DNA of 64,000 nt from Rheinheimera texasensis DSM 17496 (GTDB taxonomy: Bacteria > Pseudomonadota > Gammaproteobacteria > Enterobacterales > Alteromonadaceae), in the NCBI RefSeq assembly GCF_000711985.1, contig NZ_KL544005.1:1129970-1193969 (forward strand), in the 5' to 3' direction. The notes beneath the pieces were generated by a model. It searched no databases. It had not been told where the DNA came from and saw nothing but the letters and a program-made list of their open reading frames with translations. The stretch's first letter is position 1. Every line of letters begins with the position of its first letter. The position numbers and the translations under genes were made by a program. This document shows positions 449 through 13,421 of the stretch, in pieces.

Positions 449-3169
449 TTAGCCGGCTCTGGCAGAAGTTGCACCCGTTTTCGGCATCGGCGCTTTAATA
501 CCTATCAGCACTGTGAGGCCGCCAACGGTAATAAAAGACACAATCCGGCTGAGCGAGCCGGCATCCGCGAGGTCGACCAAAAACAGTTTCACCAGCACGA
601 CCGCCAGCAAAGCTGCGCCAGCTTGCCAGCGCAGCCGGTGTTGCAGCAGATGACCACGCAGCATCAGCACCAATGCCAGCAGCGTCCAGCCGACTGACAG
701 GCCAAGCTGCACTTCGCTACTGTGCCACAGCGACTCAAATTGCCACGGCAGCTGCAGCAGCAGCGCAATAGCGCGTACCAACAGCACAGTGGCACTGATA
801 AAAGCCGCGGCGGCCAGCAACTGCGTGAGCCAAGGCGTTGGCGTTAACACACGTTGGATAGCCCGCCATTGCAAGCCCGCGGCCAGCACTGCGCCCAGCA
901 TCACGGCATCCGGACCGTTCAGCAGCGGATAACCTGTTGCCGATTCCACCAGACTCCAACCCCACAGTAGCAACAGTCCACCGAGCCAGGGCAAAGGCAG
1001 CCGTATTAAAAACAGCGCCGGTGCGGCCGGATGCGGCCAGCGCTGCTGCACAGATAACCACAGACACAACAACATGGGTGCCACGACAGCAACAAAAAAC
1101 AGCCCCAACAGCTGCTGATTCTCCAGTTGCCAACTGTTCGCCAGATAACGTGCCTGCCACAGCACTAAAACCCCCACCAGCCAGGGCATCGCCAGTAAAT
1201 ACAATGGCTTGCTGACCTGCGCCTGCCGAATCCAGCGATAGAAACTCAAAAGCACCAACATCAGCGCGACGATACCGCTCAGAGACAACACCGGTTGCCA
1301 GTGGCCGCTGTCGAGCTGGCGAAAAAATTCGGCGCCATACCAGCAGTACAGCAGCGGTAACAGCCACCAGCCAAAACGCTGCAGCGTCGGCAATGGCCAG
1401 CGCTGATAAAGTGCGGACGCCAACACTAACGACAGCGCCGCCGCCGCGATCTGCGCCGCTAAAGGCTGCGTCAGATGACCGTCCAGTTCGGCAAAAAACG
1501 CCAGATGCCAGAGGCCCCAGCCGAGCAATGCCCACAGCAAGGTCAAAGCAGTTTCACCCGGCAACAGCCGTGTATCCGCCGGCTTGCGGTCGCTGCTGAC
1601 TGACAGCAATAGCAGCGACAAGCCGAGCACCAGAATATTGCTAAAGTCGCCCTGCAAAAACCATAAGCGGCCGGTCTGCACCGGCAATTCACTGACAAAA
1701 GCGACCAGTGCACCCGCCATCAGCAGATAAGCACCGGCGCGGCTGGCGCGGCTTCGTTGCTGGAAACCGAGCCAACATAGACCGGCAGCCTCCAACGCCC
1801 AGCCAAAGGCGGTCCAGCTGGCGCCTTGAGAAAATGGCAGCACCAAAGAGGCAAACATCAGCGCGAGGCCCAGCTGGATCTGGCCAAACCGGCGTAAATC
1901 GTCGCGTTGCTGCCGGCGTACCAGCAGATACATGCCACCATACAGCAACGCATAGACCGCGGCGCTGACGCTATCGCCCTGGCTAAAATGATTCGTCAGC
2001 AACAGCTGCTGACTAAAGGACAACAACGGCAGTCCAAACACTAAACTGCCATCGATAAAACCGCGGCTCTGATGGCCCTGGCGCAGCGTAAAGCGATAAC
2101 CAATCAACAGGTACATCAGGAAATAAGCAGCGAAAAACGGCTGCACCAGCGCGTAGTCGCTGCTGTGGTAATTGATCAGCTGCCAGGCCAGCGCGATGCC
2201 AAAAGTCGCGACAAAACCAGTCCAGTTCAGCCAGCGCCATTGCCGGTACCAGGCCAACAGCAACACACCGGCATTCAGTAGCAGGTAATAGCTGAACAGT
2301 CCGACAAAACGATTCGAGCCGTCCGATGTCAGCAAAGGCACCAAAAAACCACCGGCGGTAGCGAGAATGGCCATTGCCTGGGATTGCTGTAACAACGCCA
2401 TCGCGCTGCCAGCCAATACCGTCAGCAACATCAGCGCAAAAGCCGTTGTACCACCAATCATCGGATAATACTTGCAGGCGGCAAACAAGGTCAGATAGAC
2501 CACAGCAAAACCGGCCCCCTGCAGCAGCGCGGCGTGATTGCCCAGCCGGCGGCGTTTCCACCAGCCAAGCCCGACCAGACCAGCGCCACAAAGCCCGATA
2601 AAACCGAGCCGCAGCTCCATCGACAATAAGCCCTGATGGGCAAAGTACGTGGCGAGAAAACTCAGGCCCAAAAACAACACGGTAAGGCCAGCCAGCACCA
2701 ACGGGCTGATCTGACGGAACAAATCAAATAAGGGGCTGAGCCAGGTTAACGTAGGAGCAGCAGTTTGCTGCGACGGTGATTGCCAGGGATCAGCAGCAGT
2801 GACTGGCGACGCATCAGGCTCAAACGGCAGCTCTGTACCGCCAACCAGCACTGATGCGGCCCTGCTGTTTGCTGGCGCAGTCTCTGCCGGTCCTGCGTCT
2901 GTTTGGATCTGGGCAGGTTGCAGCGCCCTCGCCTGCAGTTCGGCTGCCTCAACAGCCGCGGTTGCACAAACAATTGGTCTGGATGGCGTCTGCTGACCGA
3001 GCTGCTTCACTTGCTGCTGTAATGCGGTCAGCTGCGCTTCCATTGCAGCTGCTTTGCGCCAGGCATCTAAGGCCAATCCCAGCGCCAGGCCAAGCACAGC
3101 GCCAATCATCGTCTCGCCTTCCAGCGCGCCCAGACTATAACCGGCGATAAATCCAAGCAGTGCCCACAT
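449..3169 (-). CDS. DUF2339 family large polytopic membrane protein
   Basis: A protein of about 906 residues. The N-terminus is a glycine-rich hydrophobic segment (GFIAGYSLGALEG) followed by a short coiled-coil-like stretch (AAAMEAQLTALQQQVKQL) and a proline/alanine-rich linker to about residue 150. The rest is an almost continuous series of more than twenty hydrophobic helices. This arrangement (N-terminal membrane anchor, coiled coil, then a very long polytopic domain) is typical of DUF2339 proteins, whose function is unknown. I chose the ATG at 3169 because AAGGA lies about 9 nt upstream; an in-frame ATG at 3208 lacks a ribosome-binding site. The gene is monocistronic: terminators lie on both sides. 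Domain family is confident, role unknown. Confidence 0.85.
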   Translation of the reverse strand: MWALLGFIAGYSLGALEGETMIGAVLGLALGLALDAWRKAAAMEAQLTALQQQVKQLGQQTPSRPIVCATAAVEAAELQARALQPAQIQTDAGPAETAPANSRAASVLVGGTELPFEPDASPVTAADPWQSPSQQTAAPTLTWLSPLFDLFRQISPLVLAGLTVLFLGLSFLATYFAHQGLLSMELRLGFIGLCGAGLVGLGWWKRRRLGNHAALLQGAGFAVVYLTLFAACKYYPMIGGTTAFALMLLTVLAGSAMALLQQSQAMAILATAGGFLVPLLTSDGSNRFVGLFSYYLLLNAGVLLLAWYRQWRWLNWTGFVATFGIALAWQLINYHSSDYALVQPFFAAYFLMYLLIGYRFTLRQGHQSRGFIDGSLVFGLPLLSFSQQLLLTNHFSQGDSVSAAVYALLYGGMYLLVRRQQRDDLRRFGQIQLGLALMFASLVLPFSQGASWTAFGWALEAAGLCWLGFQQRSRASRAGAYLLMAGALVAFVSELPVQTGRLWFLQGDFSNILVLGLSLLLLSVSSDRKPADTRLLPGETALTLLWALLGWGLWHLAFFAELDGHLTQPLAAQIAAAALSLVLASALYQRWPLPTLQRFGWWLLPLLYCWYGAEFFRQLDSGHWQPVLSLSGIVALMLVLLSFYRWIRQAQVSKPLYLLAMPWLVGVLVLWQARYLANSWQLENQQLLGLFFVAVVAPMLLCLWLSVQQRWPHPAAPALFLIRLPLPWLGGLLLLWGWSLVESATGYPLLNGPDAVMLGAVLAAGLQWRAIQRVLTPTPWLTQLLAAAAFISATVLLVRAIALLLQLPWQFESLWHSSEVQLGLSVGWTLLALVLMLRGHLLQHRLRWQAGAALLAVVLVKLFLVDLADAGSLSRIVSFITVGGLTVLIGIKAPMPKTGATSARAG

Positions 3170-6037: not shown

Positions 6038-9000
6038 TTAGTCCGGCCGGCGTTGTAACGGTAACAATATCCGGTAACTCAGACCCTGACCAGCCTCACT
6101 GCGCACCTGAATACTGCCATGCAGTTCCACCGTCACCAGATTGTAGACAATATGACTGCCGAGACCGCTAAAGCCGGCATGGCGTTTGGTGGTAAAGAAA
6201 GGTTCAAACAGCCGCGGCAGCAGTTCAGCCGGCATGCCCTGACCATTATCCAGATACTGCATCAAGACCTGATTGCCTTGTTGCGTCAGGCCCAGGCGGA
6301 TCTGCCGGTCGGTTTGTTGCGGCAAAAAACCATGCTGCAACGAGTTCATCACCAGATGTTCCAGTAACCGCGCCAGGATGCCGGCATCGGCATGCAGCAC
6401 CAGGCCAGGCTCGGCATCAAACTGCACCTGACAACCGGTTTTACTGAGCTCAGGCGCCAACGCCTGCAACACCTCAGCGAAGTAACTGCTCAGTTCAACA
6501 TCCCGCACGCTGATCGCCGAACGATCCACCGCCACCTGTTTAAAACTTTGCACCAGCGCGGCGACGCGTTGGGTGTTGTCAGCCAGCATCTGGCAGGTGG
6601 CTGCAGCGGTCTCCAGGTATTCATGAAACATCGCCGCAGTCAGACGCTTGTCGCGCTGCAGCTCCGTCAGCTGCGAAAGTTCATGTTGTAAATGACTGGC
6701 GGCGGTAACACAGATACCCAACGGCGTATTAATTTCATGCGCCACCCCGGCGACCAGGCCCCCAAGCGAGGCCATTTTTTCCTGCATCACCAGTTGCTCG
6801 CGGGTTTGCTGCAGTCGCTGCACCACATTAGCATTGGCCACGGCAATGGCGATAGTGCTGCATAAAGTACGCAGTAAATCAATTTGCTCTGCCTCGAAGG
6901 CCTGTTGCTGCGGGCTTTGTACGGTCAGACAGCCAATTTGTTCGCCTTTGACACTCAGGGGGAAATACAACACCGATTGCATCGGCTCACCAACCAGCGG
7001 AGTTGGCAACTCTTTCAAATACAACAGAAAGTCCTGCCGGCTTTTCGTCTGGATCTCGCGCTGTTGGGCAAAACACACCGCGGCAAGATTGGCCTGACCT
7101 TGCAGCACCAGTTCGAATGGTGGCATCAGCTGGCCGTTTTCCATCCAATGACTGAACTCCAGCACTTGCTGCTCGCATTTATACACGCCAATCGCCAGCA
7201 CATGCACATCCATCAGGTCGTTCAGACTACGATGCACCAGCAGCAGAATTTCCTGTAAGTCCAGCGACGCCGTGATCTGCCGGGCCACAGTTTGCAGCAG
7301 CGATAAATCGCGATAGGAATTACTCAGCGCCATATGTTGGGTTTTCAGCTCGCTGGTGCGGCTGTCCACCACTTTTTCCAGCCAGAGCCGGGTTTTGCGT
7401 TCATGCCGCAACCGGTATTGCATCACAAACCAAATCAGACTCAGCGTCAGCACCACCACCGAGGTTTTGAACCACCAGGTCAGCCACCAGGGCGGTAAAA
7501 TCTGCAGCGTCAGCTGACTTGGCTGCTGGCCCTGCCAGCTCTGCCCTGGCGCTCTGGCCATCACTTCAAACTGATAACGGCCCGGTGCCAGCCGGGTGTA
7601 GGTAGCGACCGGATTCGCCGCATCAGTTTCAATCCAGTCACGGTCAAAGCCCAGCAGCCGGTAGCGATATTGCATCGACAACGGGTCCACCAAATTCAGC
7701 GCAGAAAAATGCAGACTGAACATGTCCTGCTCATATTGCAGCTGGATTTGCTCAGCAAAACCGGGCGATTTTTTCAGTTGTAACCGCGAGTCGCCCACCT
7801 TGACCGGCCGGTTAAACAAACTAAAACCGGTCAGCCGGACCGGAAAGGTCTGCTCCGGTATTTGCAGCAAAGCAGCAGGGTAAATATCCAGCCCCTGACT
7901 GCCGCCCCGGTACTGGCGTTGTTGCTGATCAATCAGCCAGGCGCCAATCCAGGTCGTGCCCTGAAAGCCATGCATCTCGCCATACTGGACTAAACCGCCT
8001 GACTGTAACTTATTGCGGTACAACAGTAAAAACTGGTTGGCGTCTTCAAGATATTTGTCGTGATCAGCAGGGCTCAGATAAGCTTTAAAACCTTCCACCT
8101 GAGCGGGCTGCTGCGGATTAAACAATACCCGGTGATTGATGTTTCCGGCCCGCAACCACAGCTGTCCGCCTTCCGGATAAATCAGCTGAATACCATCAAA
8201 ACGCAGACCTGAACCGTCGGAAGCCTGCCAATGTTGCAGCTGACCGCTGAGCTTATCCAGCCGGATCAGTCCTTGATCAGCCAGCCCAATCCACAAAGCA
8301 TCCTGCTGGTCCGTTGCCAGGATAGAAATCACCGCATTATCCAGCCGCACGCCCGGCCGCACCTGCTGATGAAATTGCCTGACCTGTCCCTGCTGCAGCA
8401 AATACAGCCCTTCACCCCGGGTGCCAATCCACAGGCGCTGCTGGTTATCCAGATGCAGATTGCCAATATGGGGTTGGCGGCTCTCACCCAGCGGCTGCAA
8501 CTGCCAGTTGCGGCTGTTGGGATCTAAAACAAACAAGCCACTGTCGGTGCCGACATACAACAGGCCTTGATTATTTTGCACCACTTGCCTGACCAGCGTC
8601 GGCTGCCTGGCCAGACCCGGTAAAACCGGCAGCGGCCAGCGTTTGACCAGAAAGCGGGTTAAATCCAGCTCGGCGACCCCGGCATCACGATTGGCCAGCC
8701 AGACATGCTGTTCATCCTGATACCAGATGCCAAACACATCGCCGTGTCCCAACAAACCAGTCTCGCCCGGCCCCAGCGGAATATTGCGCACTTGCTGAGC
8801 CTGCGCCGACAAGCCAAAAACACCGACCGGCGTTTTCAGCCACAGTGTCTGCTGTTTATCAAATAACAAACCGGTCAGATTATTGCTCGGCAACTGATAA
8901 CTGACTAACGGATTGGCTTTGAATAATTGCCACTGCGCGCTGCCGGCGGCCTGATACCACAGCCCTTTGTCATAGCTGCTGAGCCAACGACCACCCTGAC

Positions 9001-9892
9001 TGTCAAAACCGATATCGGTCAGCAGCCCCTGTGCCAGGGCTGCCGGCTGCGCCCGCTCCGCCTGCAAAATGCCGCTGGCGCTGTCGAAATGATAGAGGCC
9101 GCCGCCATAGCTGGTCAGCCAAATCTGGCCCCTGGCGTCGGCTTTAATCGCAGTCACAGCCGCCGCGGTCAGTGCAGAGCTACGGGTGCTGAACAGCTGT
9201 TTGTGGCCCTGCTGCGGGTGCCAGCGGATGGCGCCGCCTTGTTGTATCTGGCGGTTACGCAGCGGCGCATTACCGGTGCCTAACCACAGATAACCGCTGC
9301 TGTCGCGAAATAACGTGTTGATATACAGACTATCCAGCTCGTTGAGCGGGACCGGCAATACCACGTTTTCCAGCCTTGCGTCTTTCGGCTCCCAGCGCAG
9401 CAGCCCGCCTCCATAAGTGCCGACCCACAGCTCGCCGGCACTATCCTGATACAACACGGAAATTTCAACCTGCTGCTGTTCGCCCTGTAAAGCCGGTAAT
9501 GCCACCCGGCTGAACTGTTCAGTTGCCGGATTAAAGCGGTTCAGACCGCCATAACGGGTACCAATCCAAATCATGCCCTGACGGTCAACCAGCAAACTGG
9601 ATACCCAGTCCGCCGACATCGCATTAGGGTCAGTTGGATCGGCCTGCCAGATTTTGATTTGCTGGCCATCAAATCGGTACAGGCCGTGTTGCGTGCCAAC
9701 CCAGAGGTAACCTTGTTGATCCTGCACAATGGCAGTTGACTGCGTCAGTTTCGGCGTGACGCGGGTCAGATTGAGGAAACGGCTGTAAACCTCAGCCTGA
9801 ATGGGCGCAGGCATTACCTGCGACGCCTGAGACCAGGCTGAAAGAGGAGCAATACACAATAAGATCAGGCAGTAAATCCGCCAGTTCAGCAT
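6038..9892 (-). CDS. Two-component-regulator beta-propeller sensor histidine kinase (GAF-containing)
   Basis: A 1284-residue membrane sensor kinase. A signal peptide (about 1-22) is followed by a long periplasmic region of repeated 'W(I/V)GT..GGL.R.(D/N)' blades (about 45-650), the Reg_prop repeats that fold as two seven-bladed propellers, then a Y_Y_Y Ig-like domain (about 685-790) and one membrane helix near 800-822. The cytoplasmic part has a linker coiled coil, a GAF domain (about 880-1010), a HisKA helix with the phosphoacceptor in AHEINTPLG (His ~1052), and an HATPase domain with DNGQGMP, FEPFFTTK and GLGSHIV. There is no receiver or DNA-binding domain, unlike Bacteroides hybrid systems of similar architecture, and no response regulator gene is adjacent. 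The ligand is unknown. The start is supported by AGGT about 9 nt upstream of the signal-peptide Met. Confidence 0.9.
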   Translation of the reverse strand: MLNWRIYCLILLCIAPLSAWSQASQVMPAPIQAEVYSRFLNLTRVTPKLTQSTAIVQDQQGYLWVGTQHGLYRFDGQQIKIWQADPTDPNAMSADWVSSLLVDRQGMIWIGTRYGGLNRFNPATEQFSRVALPALQGEQQQVEISVLYQDSAGELWVGTYGGGLLRWEPKDARLENVVLPVPLNELDSLYINTLFRDSSGYLWLGTGNAPLRNRQIQQGGAIRWHPQQGHKQLFSTRSSALTAAAVTAIKADARGQIWLTSYGGGLYHFDSASGILQAERAQPAALAQGLLTDIGFDSQGGRWLSSYDKGLWYQAAGSAQWQLFKANPLVSYQLPSNNLTGLLFDKQQTLWLKTPVGVFGLSAQAQQVRNIPLGPGETGLLGHGDVFGIWYQDEQHVWLANRDAGVAELDLTRFLVKRWPLPVLPGLARQPTLVRQVVQNNQGLLYVGTDSGLFVLDPNSRNWQLQPLGESRQPHIGNLHLDNQQRLWIGTRGEGLYLLQQGQVRQFHQQVRPGVRLDNAVISILATDQQDALWIGLADQGLIRLDKLSGQLQHWQASDGSGLRFDGIQLIYPEGGQLWLRAGNINHRVLFNPQQPAQVEGFKAYLSPADHDKYLEDANQFLLLYRNKLQSGGLVQYGEMHGFQGTTWIGAWLIDQQQRQYRGGSQGLDIYPAALLQIPEQTFPVRLTGFSLFNRPVKVGDSRLQLKKSPGFAEQIQLQYEQDMFSLHFSALNLVDPLSMQYRYRLLGFDRDWIETDAANPVATYTRLAPGRYQFEVMARAPGQSWQGQQPSQLTLQILPPWWLTWWFKTSVVVLTLSLIWFVMQYRLRHERKTRLWLEKVVDSRTSELKTQHMALSNSYRDLSLLQTVARQITASLDLQEILLLVHRSLNDLMDVHVLAIGVYKCEQQVLEFSHWMENGQLMPPFELVLQGQANLAAVCFAQQREIQTKSRQDFLLYLKELPTPLVGEPMQSVLYFPLSVKGEQIGCLTVQSPQQQAFEAEQIDLLRTLCSTIAIAVANANVVQRLQQTREQLVMQEKMASLGGLVAGVAHEINTPLGICVTAASHLQHELSQLTELQRDKRLTAAMFHEYLETAAATCQMLADNTQRVAALVQSFKQVAVDRSAISVRDVELSSYFAEVLQALAPELSKTGCQVQFDAEPGLVLHADAGILARLLEHLVMNSLQHGFLPQQTDRQIRLGLTQQGNQVLMQYLDNGQGMPAELLPRLFEPFFTTKRHAGFSGLGSHIVYNLVTVELHGSIQVRSEAGQGLSYRILLPLQRRPD

Positions 9893-9967
9893 CTGTATCT
9901 ACCTGAAAGGAAAGCGACTCTGTCCAGTATTAATGCTTTTTGCTGTCACTGCAATCAAAGAACAGGA

Positions 9968-10168
9968 TCACAGCGGCGATTGCCCCCCAACTGTCTGCAG
10001 CACGTTTGCCGGCTGCAGCGCCGCCATACTCATCACCATCAGCAGCATCAACAACACCCAGGCCGTGCCAAGCAGCAAACTCCGCCAATCCAGCCGGCGG
10101 AACAGCCACAGATCTAGTCCACAGACTAATAACGCCGGCCACAGCACCCATAAACTTAAGCCCAGCAT
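9968..10168 (-). CDS. Small hydrophobic membrane protein downstream of a Fur box
   Basis: A 66-residue protein beginning MLGLSLWVLWPALLV with two or three hydrophobic segments (about 1-18, 28-48) and a polar tail. I chose the ATG at 10168 because GGAG lies 7 nt upstream; an upstream in-frame TTG at 10201 has no ribosome-binding site. A TTGCAA/TATTTT minus-strand promoter overlapping a Fur box sits just upstream, giving a leader of about 25 nt. It ends 75 nt before the giant sensor kinase gene, same strand, so read-through is possible. I do not recognise a family. Overlapping reading frames exist here, so the coding call rests on the ribosome-binding site, the hydrophobic pattern and the promoter. 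Confidence 0.5.
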   Translation of the reverse strand: MLGLSLWVLWPALLVCGLDLWLFRRLDWRSLLLGTAWVLLMLLMVMSMAALQPANVLQTVGGQSPL

Positions 10169-10207
10169 TCGCCATCTCCATCGGTCAATCGCTGAGATCA
10201 AAATAAT

Positions 10208-10251
10208 TTAAATGAGAATTATTTGCAATTAGAAAAAGACTAAGTTATGGT
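10208..10251. promoter_or_regulatory. Fur box overlapping divergent promoters
   Basis: TGAGAAT-T-ATTTGCA (10213-10227) matches 12 of 14 positions of the 7-1-7 Fur consensus TGATAAT-N-ATTATCA. It overlaps a TTGCAA hexamer (10223-10228), which is its own reverse complement. On the plus strand this -35 is followed after 17 bp by TATGGT (10246-10251); on the minus strand after 17 bp by TATTTT (10205-10200). One Fur dimer could therefore repress both directions. Fur-box resemblance is seen directly; iron regulation is inferred. Confidence 0.65.
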
Positions 10252-10257
10252 AAGCAA

Positions 10258-10389
10258 CGTCAGGATGACACACCGATACTTGCCCGGTGCATGGAGGGAT
10301 CCACTCCACGGTAGTCCCAGTCGTTGATTGGGTGTTTGCTGTTCTGCAGTGACTTTGCGGGGGACGTTTGCGCCGTCCCCCGTTTTTTT
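10258..10389 (+). ncRNA. Putative Fur-controlled small regulatory RNA (~130 nt)
   Basis: A plus-strand transcription unit predicted from a promoter (-35 10223-10228, -10 10246-10251) and a strong intrinsic terminator ending at 10389, with no gene of ordinary size between. Predicted hairpins are CACCG/CGGTG (10271-10289), TGGAG/CTCCA (10292-10308) and CCCA/TGGG (10316-10332), followed by a single-stranded stretch rich in U and G and the terminator. A Fur box over the -35 makes it a candidate RyhB-type iron-sparing RNA, but I do not see the enterobacterial RyhB core. A 20-codon reading frame (ATG 10265, stop 10325-10327) is present but has no properly spaced ribosome-binding site; a dual-function RNA cannot be excluded. 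The terminator cannot serve the minus-strand HDOD gene because its U tract is on the plus strand. Confidence 0.55.
10358..10389 (+). terminator. Strong intrinsic terminator of the putative sRNA
   Basis: CGGGGGACG (10358-10366) pairs perfectly with CGTCCCCCG (10374-10382) around a 7-nt loop, followed by seven T residues (10383-10389). Orientation is unambiguously plus strand. The T run overlaps the stop codon of the converging HDOD gene. Confidence 0.9.
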
Positions 10390-11797
10390 AGTCGGTCGCT
10401 TTCCCATCACTTTGCTGCACGATCAGCGTTAATAGCTGCGCCGTGAGCTCAAATTCTGTTTGCTGGCGATCAGTCAGCGGTTTGCCGGCAGCATCGGCAT
10501 ATAACAAGCCAAACAGCCGGCGTTCCAGCCGGATCGGCGCGACAAAACAATCGCCGTCGTAGGGCAAAAATTGCTGCAGCGCGCCGATATCGGCACCATT
10601 GAGTTTTTTATGCCACAGCATCTGCTCAGAGCGCAGCAAGTCGTGCAGCACTTCACCTTTTCGCAGTTGTTCCAGGGCTATTGCCGCCTGATTGCGCCAC
10701 AATTGCGTGTCACGGCCGGCGACATAACTCGGCACAAAACTCTTGCTCTGAAAATCCATCAGCAGCAACGCGACTCGCGGTAATCCCACGCCTTCTTGCA
10801 GGCAAATCACAGTCGCATGCAGCAAGCGCGACAAACTGTCGCTGACGCGCTGCAGTTTTAACAAAGTATTCAGTTGGACACTGAATTCATAACCGGTCGG
10901 CTTGCTCTCGGTATTCTGCGCCAGAATTTGTGCCCGGTTTGGCAATAATGACACCAGGCTTTCAGCATTATATTGATTAGCCGTGAGCGCTGCTTCTTCA
11001 GCCATCAGCAGCACCTGCTGCTGGCTTTCTTCCAACGTCAGCTGACACAGCTGGGCCACTTGTGTGCAGTTTTCCAGCATAGCCGGAGACTGCAGCCCTT
11101 CTGTCAGATGCACACTGATACTGTCCGCCAGATTGACCAAAGCGCCGATGGAACCAGCCGGTGCGCTTTGCTGCAACGCATCCAGCATAAAATCACCGAG
11201 CTTCCATTCTTTCACCAGCTCGCGGTTCAGGCTGTCGATGCCAATCCCGAGATGTTTCATCGCAATGGCATGTTCATCGTCCGGATATTCGCGGCATTCG
11301 CGGACAAAATGCTCAGCCGCCGGCTCCCGCGTCGCCAACAACGCCAGCTTGCCGATATGCCGCAGCAAAGCCGCAATAAACACCAGCTCCCGTTTGGCCG
11401 CATCGGCACGCGGCACTAAAGCCCGCGCCTGCACTGCTGCATGGAAAGATTGGGTCAGTTGCTGTAGTAACAGCTGGCGTGGTTTGCCCTGTAGAAAGCT
11501 GTCAATCAGACTACTGGCCAGCGTGATGTTTTTAATTTCGAGGAAACCGACCTGAATAATGGCACGGGAAACGGTATGGATGGGTTTGCCGGATCTGTTG
11601 TAATGCACAGCATTGGCGACCCGCAGCACTTTGGCAGTCAGCCCGGCATCGCGTAACACAATTTTGGCTAAATCGTCGGCGTTGCCTTCATTGCGCTCAT
11701 CCAACTGGCAAATTTGCTGCACCACCACATCCAGCGCCGGCATTTGCTGATTTAAAATGAGCTTCATCCAGGCCTGCAGGCCCCTGATTTCTTGCAT
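10388..11797 (-). CDS. HDOD domain protein with C-terminal GAF-like domain
   Basis: A 469-residue cytoplasmic protein. The first ~270 residues form an HDOD domain (ICQLDERNEGNADDLAKIV, LTAKVLRVANAVHYNR, HTVSRAIIQVGF), the HD-related fold that lacks most metal ligands and acts as an output module in bacterial signalling. The C-terminal ~170 residues (about 300-465) look like a GAF domain (VSDSLSRLLHATVICLQEG, FVAPIRLERRLFGLLYAD). This pairing is common in gammaproteobacteria, usually in second-messenger or stress signalling, but no specific function is known. I take the ATG at 11797 (MQEIRGLQ), which has GAGAAG upstream; a longer frame to 11848 has no such site. Confidence 0.85.
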   Translation of the reverse strand: MQEIRGLQAWMKLILNQQMPALDVVVQQICQLDERNEGNADDLAKIVLRDAGLTAKVLRVANAVHYNRSGKPIHTVSRAIIQVGFLEIKNITLASSLIDSFLQGKPRQLLLQQLTQSFHAAVQARALVPRADAAKRELVFIAALLRHIGKLALLATREPAAEHFVRECREYPDDEHAIAMKHLGIGIDSLNRELVKEWKLGDFMLDALQQSAPAGSIGALVNLADSISVHLTEGLQSPAMLENCTQVAQLCQLTLEESQQQVLLMAEEAALTANQYNAESLVSLLPNRAQILAQNTESKPTGYEFSVQLNTLLKLQRVSDSLSRLLHATVICLQEGVGLPRVALLLMDFQSKSFVPSYVAGRDTQLWRNQAAIALEQLRKGEVLHDLLRSEQMLWHKKLNGADIGALQQFLPYDGDCFVAPIRLERRLFGLLYADAAGKPLTDRQQTEFELTAQLLTLIVQQSDGKATD

Positions 11798-11915
11798 AGC
11801 GTACTTCTCTTCACTACAGCACTTTACGCAGAGTGTAGCCCCAAGCACTGTCAGGCTTGAAGCCTAATTTCCAAAAAGGCTAGACTGTGCAGATCCTCTA
11901 CACGGCAGTAACAAA

Positions 11916-12704: not shown

Positions 12705-13421
12705 CTATAGCGGCCCTTTGGTTCTGAACCAACCGGTCACCGAGTAGCGCACATGGCGGGCGAATGGCGTGACGTAAGTTACCGCATGTGGGTGATGCAC
12801 CTCAAATAACGCCATATTGTTAAAACGTGGAACCCAGGTCTGTGTTGGCGTGCCATCCGGTGTAAAAAACTGCAGCAAACCGCCCCAGTCCGGGTGCCAT
12901 TGCCGGGTAAAACCCATCACATACGCAAAACGCCGCCCCTCGGCTTCAACCACATCGTTATGCCGGGTCAGATAGTTGCCCGGCACATAGCGACTGGCTT
13001 GTGCCGAGACATACATCAGCGTTTTTTCTCCGGTCAGCTCGCGCACAAACTGCAGCATCTCCGGACTATTCAGCAACTGATGTACCTGGCTCAGCAATGG
13101 CGGAGTCTGCATCTGGCGCTGCGGCCGGCCAATCAGATGACTGCCATACAAAAAACCGGTGCCTTCAGCGGCCAGCTGGTGCAGCTGTGCCATCCACTGC
13201 CTGACCTGTTCGGCTGGCATTTGCCGTAACTCCTGATCTAACAGCGACTGGTAACGGCCACCGGCAAAAAAAGCATTGTCGTATGGGGTTTCGCGCTGCA
13301 GGCAATGCAGAATGTGCTCTGCACTTTCCGGCGTCCAAATGTCTGACAGATTGATTTTCAGATCGGCGGCAAACTCAGCTTTTAAGTCAGCGCTTACAGT
13401 TGGCAGATTCAGTTGTAACAT
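12705..13421 (-). CDS. 2OG-Fe(II) oxygenase (prolyl-hydroxylase type)
   Basis: A 238-residue 2-oxoglutarate/Fe(II)-dependent dioxygenase. The jelly-roll core contains ASRYVPGNYLTRHNDV, where His and Asp of the HxD metal-binding motif are visible, and a distal HAVTYVTPFARHVRYSVTGW segment that supplies the third iron ligand and the Arg that binds 2-oxoglutarate. The arrangement resembles prolyl 4-hydroxylase-like and Tpa1/Ofd1-type proteins, which hydroxylate proline in proteins such as ribosomal or elongation factors. The substrate here is unknown. Start at 13421 has GGACAT upstream. DUF2288 lies 24 nt upstream on the same strand. Confidence 0.85.
   Translation of the reverse strand: MLQLNLPTVSADLKAEFAADLKINLSDIWTPESAEHILHCLQRETPYDNAFFAGGRYQSLLDQELRQMPAEQVRQWMAQLHQLAAEGTGFLYGSHLIGRPQRQMQTPPLLSQVHQLLNSPEMLQFVRELTGEKTLMYVSAQASRYVPGNYLTRHNDVVEAEGRRFAYVMGFTRQWHPDWGGLLQFFTPDGTPTQTWVPRFNNMALFEVHHPHAVTYVTPFARHVRYSVTGWFRTKGPL

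Follow-up and report, generated by a model that had tools for sequence, protein, structure and literature searches.

The window analysed here, 64,000 nucleotides of the 4.59 Mb genome of Rheinheimera texasensis DSM 17496, contains at positions 10209–10389 a Fur-like box, a TTGCAA motif that reads in both directions, and a plus-strand unit of approximately 130 nt with a strong terminator. The unit is flanked by a sensor kinase gene and an HDOD gene, and a short open reading frame (ORF) diverges from it across the box. The genes and predicted control elements are arranged as follows:

6038–9892, minus strand: two-component regulator propeller sensor kinase gene (PF07494, PF07495, GAF, HATPase_c)
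9968–10168, minus strand: ORF of a 66-residue small hydrophobic (putative membrane) protein, on the other side of the Fur-like box and pointing away from the RNA
10200–10205, minus strand: -10-like element TATTTT of the small ORF's promoter
10211–10229, strand not assigned: Fur-like operator AATGAGAATTATTTGCAAT, conserved and common to the two divergent promoters
10223–10228, both directions: self-complementary TTGCAA, the -35 element of both promoters
10246–10251, plus strand: -10 element TATGGT of the small RNA promoter
10258–10389, plus strand: small RNA gene of about 130 nt, conserved in nine genomes, with a 5' end predicted to within about 2 nt
10357–10389, plus strand: intrinsic terminator, a 10-bp stem followed by T7
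10388–11848, minus strand: HDOD-domain protein gene (PF08668), convergent with the RNA

The interval was aligned across related genomes, and the RNA, the spacing of its promoter, and the closing stem with its T run are kept in nine of them. The RNA unit is present in nine of the 22 Rheinheimera genomes and was found in no other of 395 genomes of the family with a covariance model (R1) of the 60-nt core. All nine matches are sequences from which R1 was built, including that of the window, which scores 75.2 bits; because 13 candidates per genome were scored under strict filters, the lack of R1 matches outside the clade is not proof of absence. A DNA search of 147 relatives returned 15 matching genomes, the source genome included, nine of which have the RNA. 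The RNA-bearing records include Rheinheimera riviphila KYPC3, Rheinheimera sp. SA_1 and 4Y26, three MAGs called Rheinheimera sp., and two called Gammaproteobacteria bacterium. A degenerate pattern identified 27 stretches in the species-genome collection, eight of them Rheinheimera-type RNAs with at least 56.2 bits and the other 19 with at most 26.3 bits; the best of these low scorers (L059) has neither a Fur-like box nor a terminator in 370 bases inspected by eye and was taken as a chance match. Among 394 genomes of the order the pattern matched two, both from Rheinheimera.

In eight of the nine genomes the RNA sits between the propeller sensor kinase and HDOD genes and adjoins both. The exception is G006, in which the RNA has been relocated beside an ORF resembling, by eye, the DUF2288 ORF of the window, and the HDOD gene is not adjacent. 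A close HDOD orthologue is present in nine genomes of the genus, namely the eight with the RNA in the standard place and G020, the contig of which ends inside the HDOD gene and which was placed in neither the with-RNA nor the without-RNA group. The other 12 genomes have neither an RNA match nor a close HDOD orthologue. At its stop codon the HDOD gene reaches the terminator of the small RNA, so that antisense transcription of the RNA from the HDOD gene may occur. Two genes past the HDOD gene there is a gene of the 2OG-Fe(II) oxygenase superfamily (12708–13421, minus strand); the proximity of an iron enzyme to a Fur-type operator is perhaps a coincidence.

The sequence-only reading had placed a Fur-like site over TTGCAA and proposed the hexamer as the -35 element of promoters in both directions, and the alignment bears this out: on either strand, exactly 17 nt separate TTGCAA from a -10-like hexamer in all nine genomes. 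The plus-strand hexamer is TATAGT in six genomes, TATGGT in two, and TAAGGT, the weakest form with only three of six consensus letters, in G018. The minus-strand hexamer is TATGCT in five genomes, TATTTT in three, and AAAAAT in one. The box stretch retains 20 to 22 of its 22 letters in the eight other genomes. The length of the plus-strand spacer is constant, its letters are retained down to 3 of 17, and 6–7 variable letters lie between the -10 element and the conserved GTCAGG or GTCATGG. The constant spacer length, the drifting letters, and the 6–7-nt gap are as expected of a promoter whose predicted start point is near 10258. The plus promoter of the window is absent from the output of a simple promoter scan, because TTGCAA and TATGGT together have 8 of 12 consensus letters and the threshold was nine.

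The operator AATGAGAATTATTTGCAAT scores 19 of 21 against a Fur-type consensus and is the top match on both strands of 464 kb of the source genome, the 21-letter consensus having been composed after the site was seen and thus not being independent of it. In three mononucleotide shuffles, each searched on a single strand, the highest score was 17, reached by one match. The classical E. coli Fur 19-mer is GATAATGATAATCATTATC, and the window has no match to it with up to three mismatches. Within the 22 genomes of the genus, AATGAGAATTATTTGCAAT with at most one mismatch occurs at 11 places in nine genomes, nine of these places being at the small RNA, and the reversed control pattern gave no matches. 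The search of 147 relatives also matched the box alone at six loci from other genera, one of which (L009) directly precedes a FecE/FecCD-like uptake operon, as read from the translation; the remaining loci are not clearly iron genes. Judged by its promoter region, the small RNA is very probably controlled by Fur. One of the two remaining places of the genus search is at L102 in the source genome; this near-identical box, AATGAGAATTATTCGCAAT, also found in G018, is located approximately 61 nt before a 265-residue ORF that looks secreted and is followed by an EF-hand-like ORF, both names being read from translation only.

The plus-strand unit had been described as approximately 130 nt long, ending in a strong intrinsic terminator, and lacking an ordinary gene; it is conserved and has no shared reading frame. 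Counted from GTCAGG, the conserved RNA start at 10259, through the last T of the terminator run, its length is 131 nt. The terminator ranks strongest among nine terminator-like sites in 9000–11500, where shuffled sequences give 2.7 sites. A stem, judged by eye, followed by at least six T closes the unit in all nine genomes, with stem sequences that differ by lineage. Measured from GTCA through the T run, the units are 106 to 231 nt long, about 106 nt being the size in the 4Y26-like lineage. In two R. riviphila-like genomes (G004 and G013), inserts of unequal length between the core and the terminator extend the units to 182 and 231 nt; the insert units (L012, 1614–1690, plus strand; L013, 1286–1414, minus strand) each have an extra, third ANGGAU loop on an imperfect stem with mismatches. 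A coding role for the unit was rejected, as ORFs of at least ten residues are absent from four of the nine RNAs and those of the others share no frame. The small RNA gene is almost certainly real, because the box, the spacer length, and the RNA core persist while the spacer letters drift and no frame is conserved.

To the left of the box, the 66-residue ORF of the sequence-only reading is present and conserved, but its designation as a membrane protein is a reading of the hydrophobic sequence. The ORF has alternative starts, and its product matches no Pfam family. It has 42 homologues with E-values of 0.01 or better, and all of the genus-named ones are from Rheinheimera. Residues P11, D19, D27, and R29 are invariant among eight aligned proteins. 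In G006, alone of the nine genomes, the counterpart across the box is only 32 residues long, and it is hydrophobic. A natural guess is that the product is a membrane protein and that cells short of iron make it along with the RNA.

The structure of the RNA was derived from a hand alignment checked against the loci, and can be divided into three consecutive hairpins, a conserved tail, and two further hairpins before the terminator:

10259–10269, plus strand: hairpin 1, GUC [AGGAU] GAC, with an A-GGA-X pentaloop (AUGGA in two genomes)
10271–10289, plus strand: hairpin 2, CACCG / CGGUG, a 5-bp stem with two compensated pairs and an invariant CUUGC loop
10292–10303, plus strand: hairpin 3, UGG [AGGGAU] CCA, an ANGGAX hexaloop on a covarying 3-bp stem
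10304–10312, plus strand: tail CUCCACGGU, conserved (with the form AUCCACGGU in two genomes) and complementary to ribosome sites of the GGAG type
10316–10332, plus strand: lineage-specific hairpin CCCAGUC GUU GAUUGGG, found in the RNAs of the source genome, G009, and G018 among seven aligned
10337–10348, plus strand: small conserved hairpin UGC [UGUUCU] GCA with a U-rich loop, its three pairs kept in 6, 7, and 7 of seven RNAs

The stem of hairpin 1 is invariant, and its loop has five bases including GGA in all nine genomes, even where GGA is shifted by one base (AGGAN to AUGGA); since the stem never varies, the hairpin is not tested by covariation. In hairpin 2, two pairs are changed on both sides (CG/AU, AU/GC), and 24 of 25 cells are paired in five distinct rows. 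This score was reached by six of 120 permutations, all of which are equivalent to the observed arrangement because three rows share an arm. The CUUGC loop has an unpaired probability of 0.82–0.98 in eight of the nine RNAs and 0.42 in the other, and may possibly serve as a base-pairing seed. The stems of hairpin 3 are UGG/CCA, CGG/CCG, CAG/CUG, and, with one A.C mismatch in two of the nine RNAs (G019 and G017), CAC/GCG, so that all three pairs change on both sides (UA/CG, GC/AU, GC/CG). Fourteen of its 15 cells are paired in five distinct rows, which was reached by two of 120 permutations, the observed one and an equivalent. In a covariation test with four distinct rows, the score was reached by 11 of 500 shuffles and the number of further pair types by 117 of 500. 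When hairpin 3 was slid along the alignment, no more than 42% of the cells were paired and no pair changed on both sides. The tail stretch TCCACGGT is present in all nine genomes, and the unpaired probability of its TCCACGG is 0.09 in the RNA of the window and 0.08–0.66 across the nine. Folding of three whole RNAs was mildly better than that of shuffled sequences in two cases (z of -1.72 and -1.89) and worse in one (+0.44), and minimum-free-energy folding of the three does not single out the hand-aligned structure.

Hairpins 1 and 3, which flank hairpin 2, present A(N)GGAX-type loops, a feature missed by the sequence-only reading. Both loops contain GGA in all nine RNAs; that of hairpin 1 is AGGAX, where X is U, A, or C, or AUGGA, and that of hairpin 3 is A(A/G)GGAU throughout. 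According to a study of RsmE–RsmZ structures, the recognised core is A(N)GGAX, an ANGGAX hexaloop placed directly on a stem is the high-affinity form, and loops without N are bound more weakly by RsmE (PMC4005645). By its sequence, hairpin 3 corresponds to the high-affinity form described there and hairpin 1 to the weaker one. The loop letters that vary are at N and X, the positions left free in the RsmE structures of that study (PMC4005645).

Strict two-hairpin content was found in seven of the nine RNAs, and the other two have one strict hairpin. The CsrA motif had been noticed in the RNA before statistics were calculated, so that the tests were not blind and the chance figures are descriptive: among 40,000 sampled windows, each of 92 nt and drawn from 464 kb of source DNA that includes the small RNA locus, two have strict two-hairpin content, and when three RNAs were dinucleotide-shuffled, 6, 3, and 1 of 3,000 shuffles had it. 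As a look-elsewhere control, 256 combinations of a first base and a trinucleotide were compared, and only A..GGA has two sites in seven of the nine RNAs and at least one in all nine; the runner-up has two sites in five RNAs. An exhaustive search of both strands of the 464 kb identified five hairpin pairs within 80 nt, one of them the small RNA; such a pair by itself is thus uncommon in this DNA, though it is not confined to the small RNA. The GGA of hairpin 3 has an unpaired probability of 0.90–0.93 in five RNAs, 0.39–0.50 in two, and 0.05–0.08 in the two with the A.C mismatch, in which the thermodynamic model buries it. The GGA of hairpin 1 is unpaired with a probability of 0.67–0.93 in five RNAs and is mostly paired (0.13–0.36) in four. 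The total number of GGA per RNA is three to five. A CsrA gene was found in 21 of the 22 genomes of the genus; the one in which it was not found, G018, is a fragmented genome with the RNA. The loop sequences and their conservation suggest that the RNA probably binds CsrA.

The RNA belongs to no RNA family catalogued in Rfam. A scan with 4227 families, which presumably include PrrF, identified only a tRNA in the window at the gathering score, and neither RyhB, PrrF, nor related models matched the small RNA at that score, in agreement with the earlier statement that the RNA lacks a recognisable RyhB core. RyhB (RF00057) is over the cut-off in none of the 22 genomes of the genus and in one of 14 control genomes, and sub-threshold RyhB matches (E up to 1) occur in all 22 and likewise in unrelated controls. 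No CsrB/CsrC/Rsm family matched the window at the gathering score, and in the scanned stretches none did even at E-values up to 10. Sub-threshold matches of other families to the window (suhB/mmgR, 19.8 bits against 41; Xoo2, 19.4 against 45; and two weaker ones) were rejected; all of them take in the terminator hairpin. Those to L004, a snoRNA and PhotoRC-I with E-values of 3.8 and 8, were rejected too.

The best-known small RNAs under Fur control spare iron by base pairing, Csr RNAs are outputs of carbon and stress signalling, and E. coli McaS has inputs other than Fur. RyhB and PrrF have a Fur-type box at the promoter and an intrinsic terminator, as has the Rheinheimera RNA, which differs from them in scoring below the cut-off and in carrying CsrA-type hairpins. 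With RsmX/RsmY/RsmZ, CsrB/CsrC, and the Pseudoalteromonas RNAs Pf1–Pf3, the Rheinheimera RNA shares A(N)GGAX hairpin loops, an intrinsic terminator, an intergenic position, and occurrence mostly in one genus (PMC4005645, PMC11882849). However, its GGA number is below the counts given there for multi-dimer sponging (9 in Pf3, 21 in Pf2, 25 in Pf1, six in RsmX, and 22 in CsrB; PMC4005645, PMC11882849), and it differs further in having no Rfam match and a Fur-type promoter box. Several A(N)GGAX hairpin loops, as expected of a Csr/Rsm RNA, are present, but the many GGA are not. McaS contains four GGA, can bind two CsrA, and represses csgD more strongly with CsrA (PMC10729762); both McaS and the Rheinheimera RNA are short and combine few GGA motifs with pairing segments, and the latter differs in the lack of an Rfam match and in the Fur-like box at its promoter. 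In E. coli, CsrA represses ftnB, bfr, and dps, and the levels of CsrA, CsrB, and CsrC are reportedly not substantially changed by iron starvation (PMC6686035). The link of CsrA to iron described there is control of iron storage, whereas in Rheinheimera Fur would act on a CsrA-binding RNA. Among the matches listed from titles and abstract starts of the open-licence literature, there was no Rheinheimera regulatory RNA and no Fur-controlled CsrA-binding RNA.

The alignments show that the unit is conserved, structured, and non-coding, that it has the elements of a promoter and a terminator, and that one of its CsrA-type hairpins covaries; transcription, Fur control, CsrA binding, and effects on targets are predictions. 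Since the RNA has two A(N)GGAX hairpins, one with a covarying stem, its anatomy points to CsrA, instead of or besides iron sparing. We lean towards a Fur-controlled CsrA-binding small RNA, which would most likely work in the manner of McaS. The position of the box suggests that iron-loaded Fur on the shared -35 element would silence both directions. In iron starvation, repression would be lifted and the RNA of approximately 130 nt would appear, and the same box would also release the small membrane protein in the opposite direction. A CsrA dimer would grip hairpins 1 and 3 through their A(N)GGAX loops, and the exposed CUUGC loop between them and the CUCCACGGU tail after them could serve as segments for pairing with mRNAs. 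CsrA bound to the RNA would either be drawn off its mRNA targets or help the RNA to pair with mRNAs. The RNA would be a poor sponge unless abundant, because it has only two CsrA sites, and by analogy with what is reported for McaS, CsrA-assisted pairing appears at least as likely as titration (PMC10729762). More tentatively, direct control by Fur of a dual-function CsrA-binding RNA could provide the Csr network with an iron input, with the small membrane protein co-controlled.

The sequence-only reading had considered a different iron-sparing RNA. The evidence from sodB and sdhC does not support iron sparing of the RyhB/PrrF kind, as pairing with these genes is not consistently exceptional against background gene starts. 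A Fur-controlled, purely base-pairing RNA of this type would mask the ribosome sites of mRNAs, for example those of sodB and sdhC, by means of its CUUGC loop and CUCCACGGU tail; it is consistent with the retention of CUUGC and UCCACGGU in all nine genomes and with the lack of RyhB matches over the cut-off in the genus. Among gene starts called by a rough script (358 in the source genome and 256 in G019), the tail seed ranks sodB at 46 of 358 and 172 of 256 and sdhC at 281 of 358 and 126 of 256, and the loop seed ranks sodB at 333 of 358 and 149 of 256 and sdhC at 7 of 358 and 141 of 256. The two genes were rejected as proven targets, as all of these ranks are ordinary except the last one for the source genome. 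There, the sdhC leader contains GGGCAAG, which is complementary to CUUGCCC, but GGGCAAG is also present in both RNA-less genomes examined, and in nine genomes 5 to 83 of 100 shuffled leaders did as well as the real one in long-leader duplexes for sdhC. The sodB leader has GATGGAG or CAGTGGAG in the nine RNA-bearing genomes and G020, and TACGGAG, which differs just upstream of the ribosome site, in all 12 genomes of the genus without the RNA, so that the tail could pair over a longer stretch where the RNA exists. However, TGGAG occurs in six of the eight readable sodB leaders from outside the genus (13 genes from 12 genomes, five not anchored; the second SOD gene of G004, in which this leader is absent, excluded) and is probably ancestral. 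The 10-mer ACCGTGGAGT occurs 20 times in ten genomes, six of these being the RNA gene itself, against 72 occurrences of the reversed control, and the tail is mostly paired in the RNA of the window. A purely base-pairing RNA is unlikely in our estimation, and it is similarly doubtful that iron sparing like that of RyhB is the main work of the RNA. A likeness between the middle part of the source RNA and the sdhC leader (TTGGGTGTT...CTGTT...TGCAG, by eye) was rejected, as most of it is absent from the RNAs of other lineages. The sdhC leader itself (L104, about 1850–2030, minus strand) is long and, by eye, well conserved, including in two RNA-less genomes, and may contain a regulatory element of its own.

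A U-rich hairpin and a U tail are features of Hfq-dependent RNAs, and the small conserved hairpin and the U7 end would suit a Fur-controlled RNA that acts through other pairing or another protein such as Hfq, its GGA loops being incidental. The uneven thermodynamic exposure of the GGA loops fits this explanation, but the compensatory stem beneath the invariant ANGGAU loop and the presence of GGA in both loops of every RNA argue against it and render it rather improbable. A reading in which the plus-strand unit has no role as a regulatory RNA, the box serves the small membrane protein only, and the right side is the terminator region of the HDOD gene is very improbable. The box is still accompanied by the ORF in the genome with the relocated unit (G006, with the shortened ORF), and the HDOD stop codon is in contact with the terminator, as such an arrangement would have it. 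However, the T run follows the hairpin on the plus strand, conservation and covariation are seen in the RNA core, and G006 has the RNA without an adjacent HDOD gene.

If the Fur-controlled CsrA-binding RNA is real, a single molecule would connect the iron and Csr networks through its Fur-like box and its two CsrA-type hairpins. The Csr network of Rheinheimera would thereby gain an iron-sensing input, which is reportedly lacking in E. coli (PMC6686035). The RNA would also be a candidate iron-responsive RNA for a genus in which RyhB exceeds the cut-off in none of the 22 genomes.

At another locus of the source genome (L183, 11950–12032), two palindromic copies of ACAGGGA(T/C)GT are located in TTTTACAGGGATGTAAAA-type hairpins 73 nt apart. 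These hairpins adjoin two tRNA genes; they fit the CsrA loop form and may be repeat or terminator elements.
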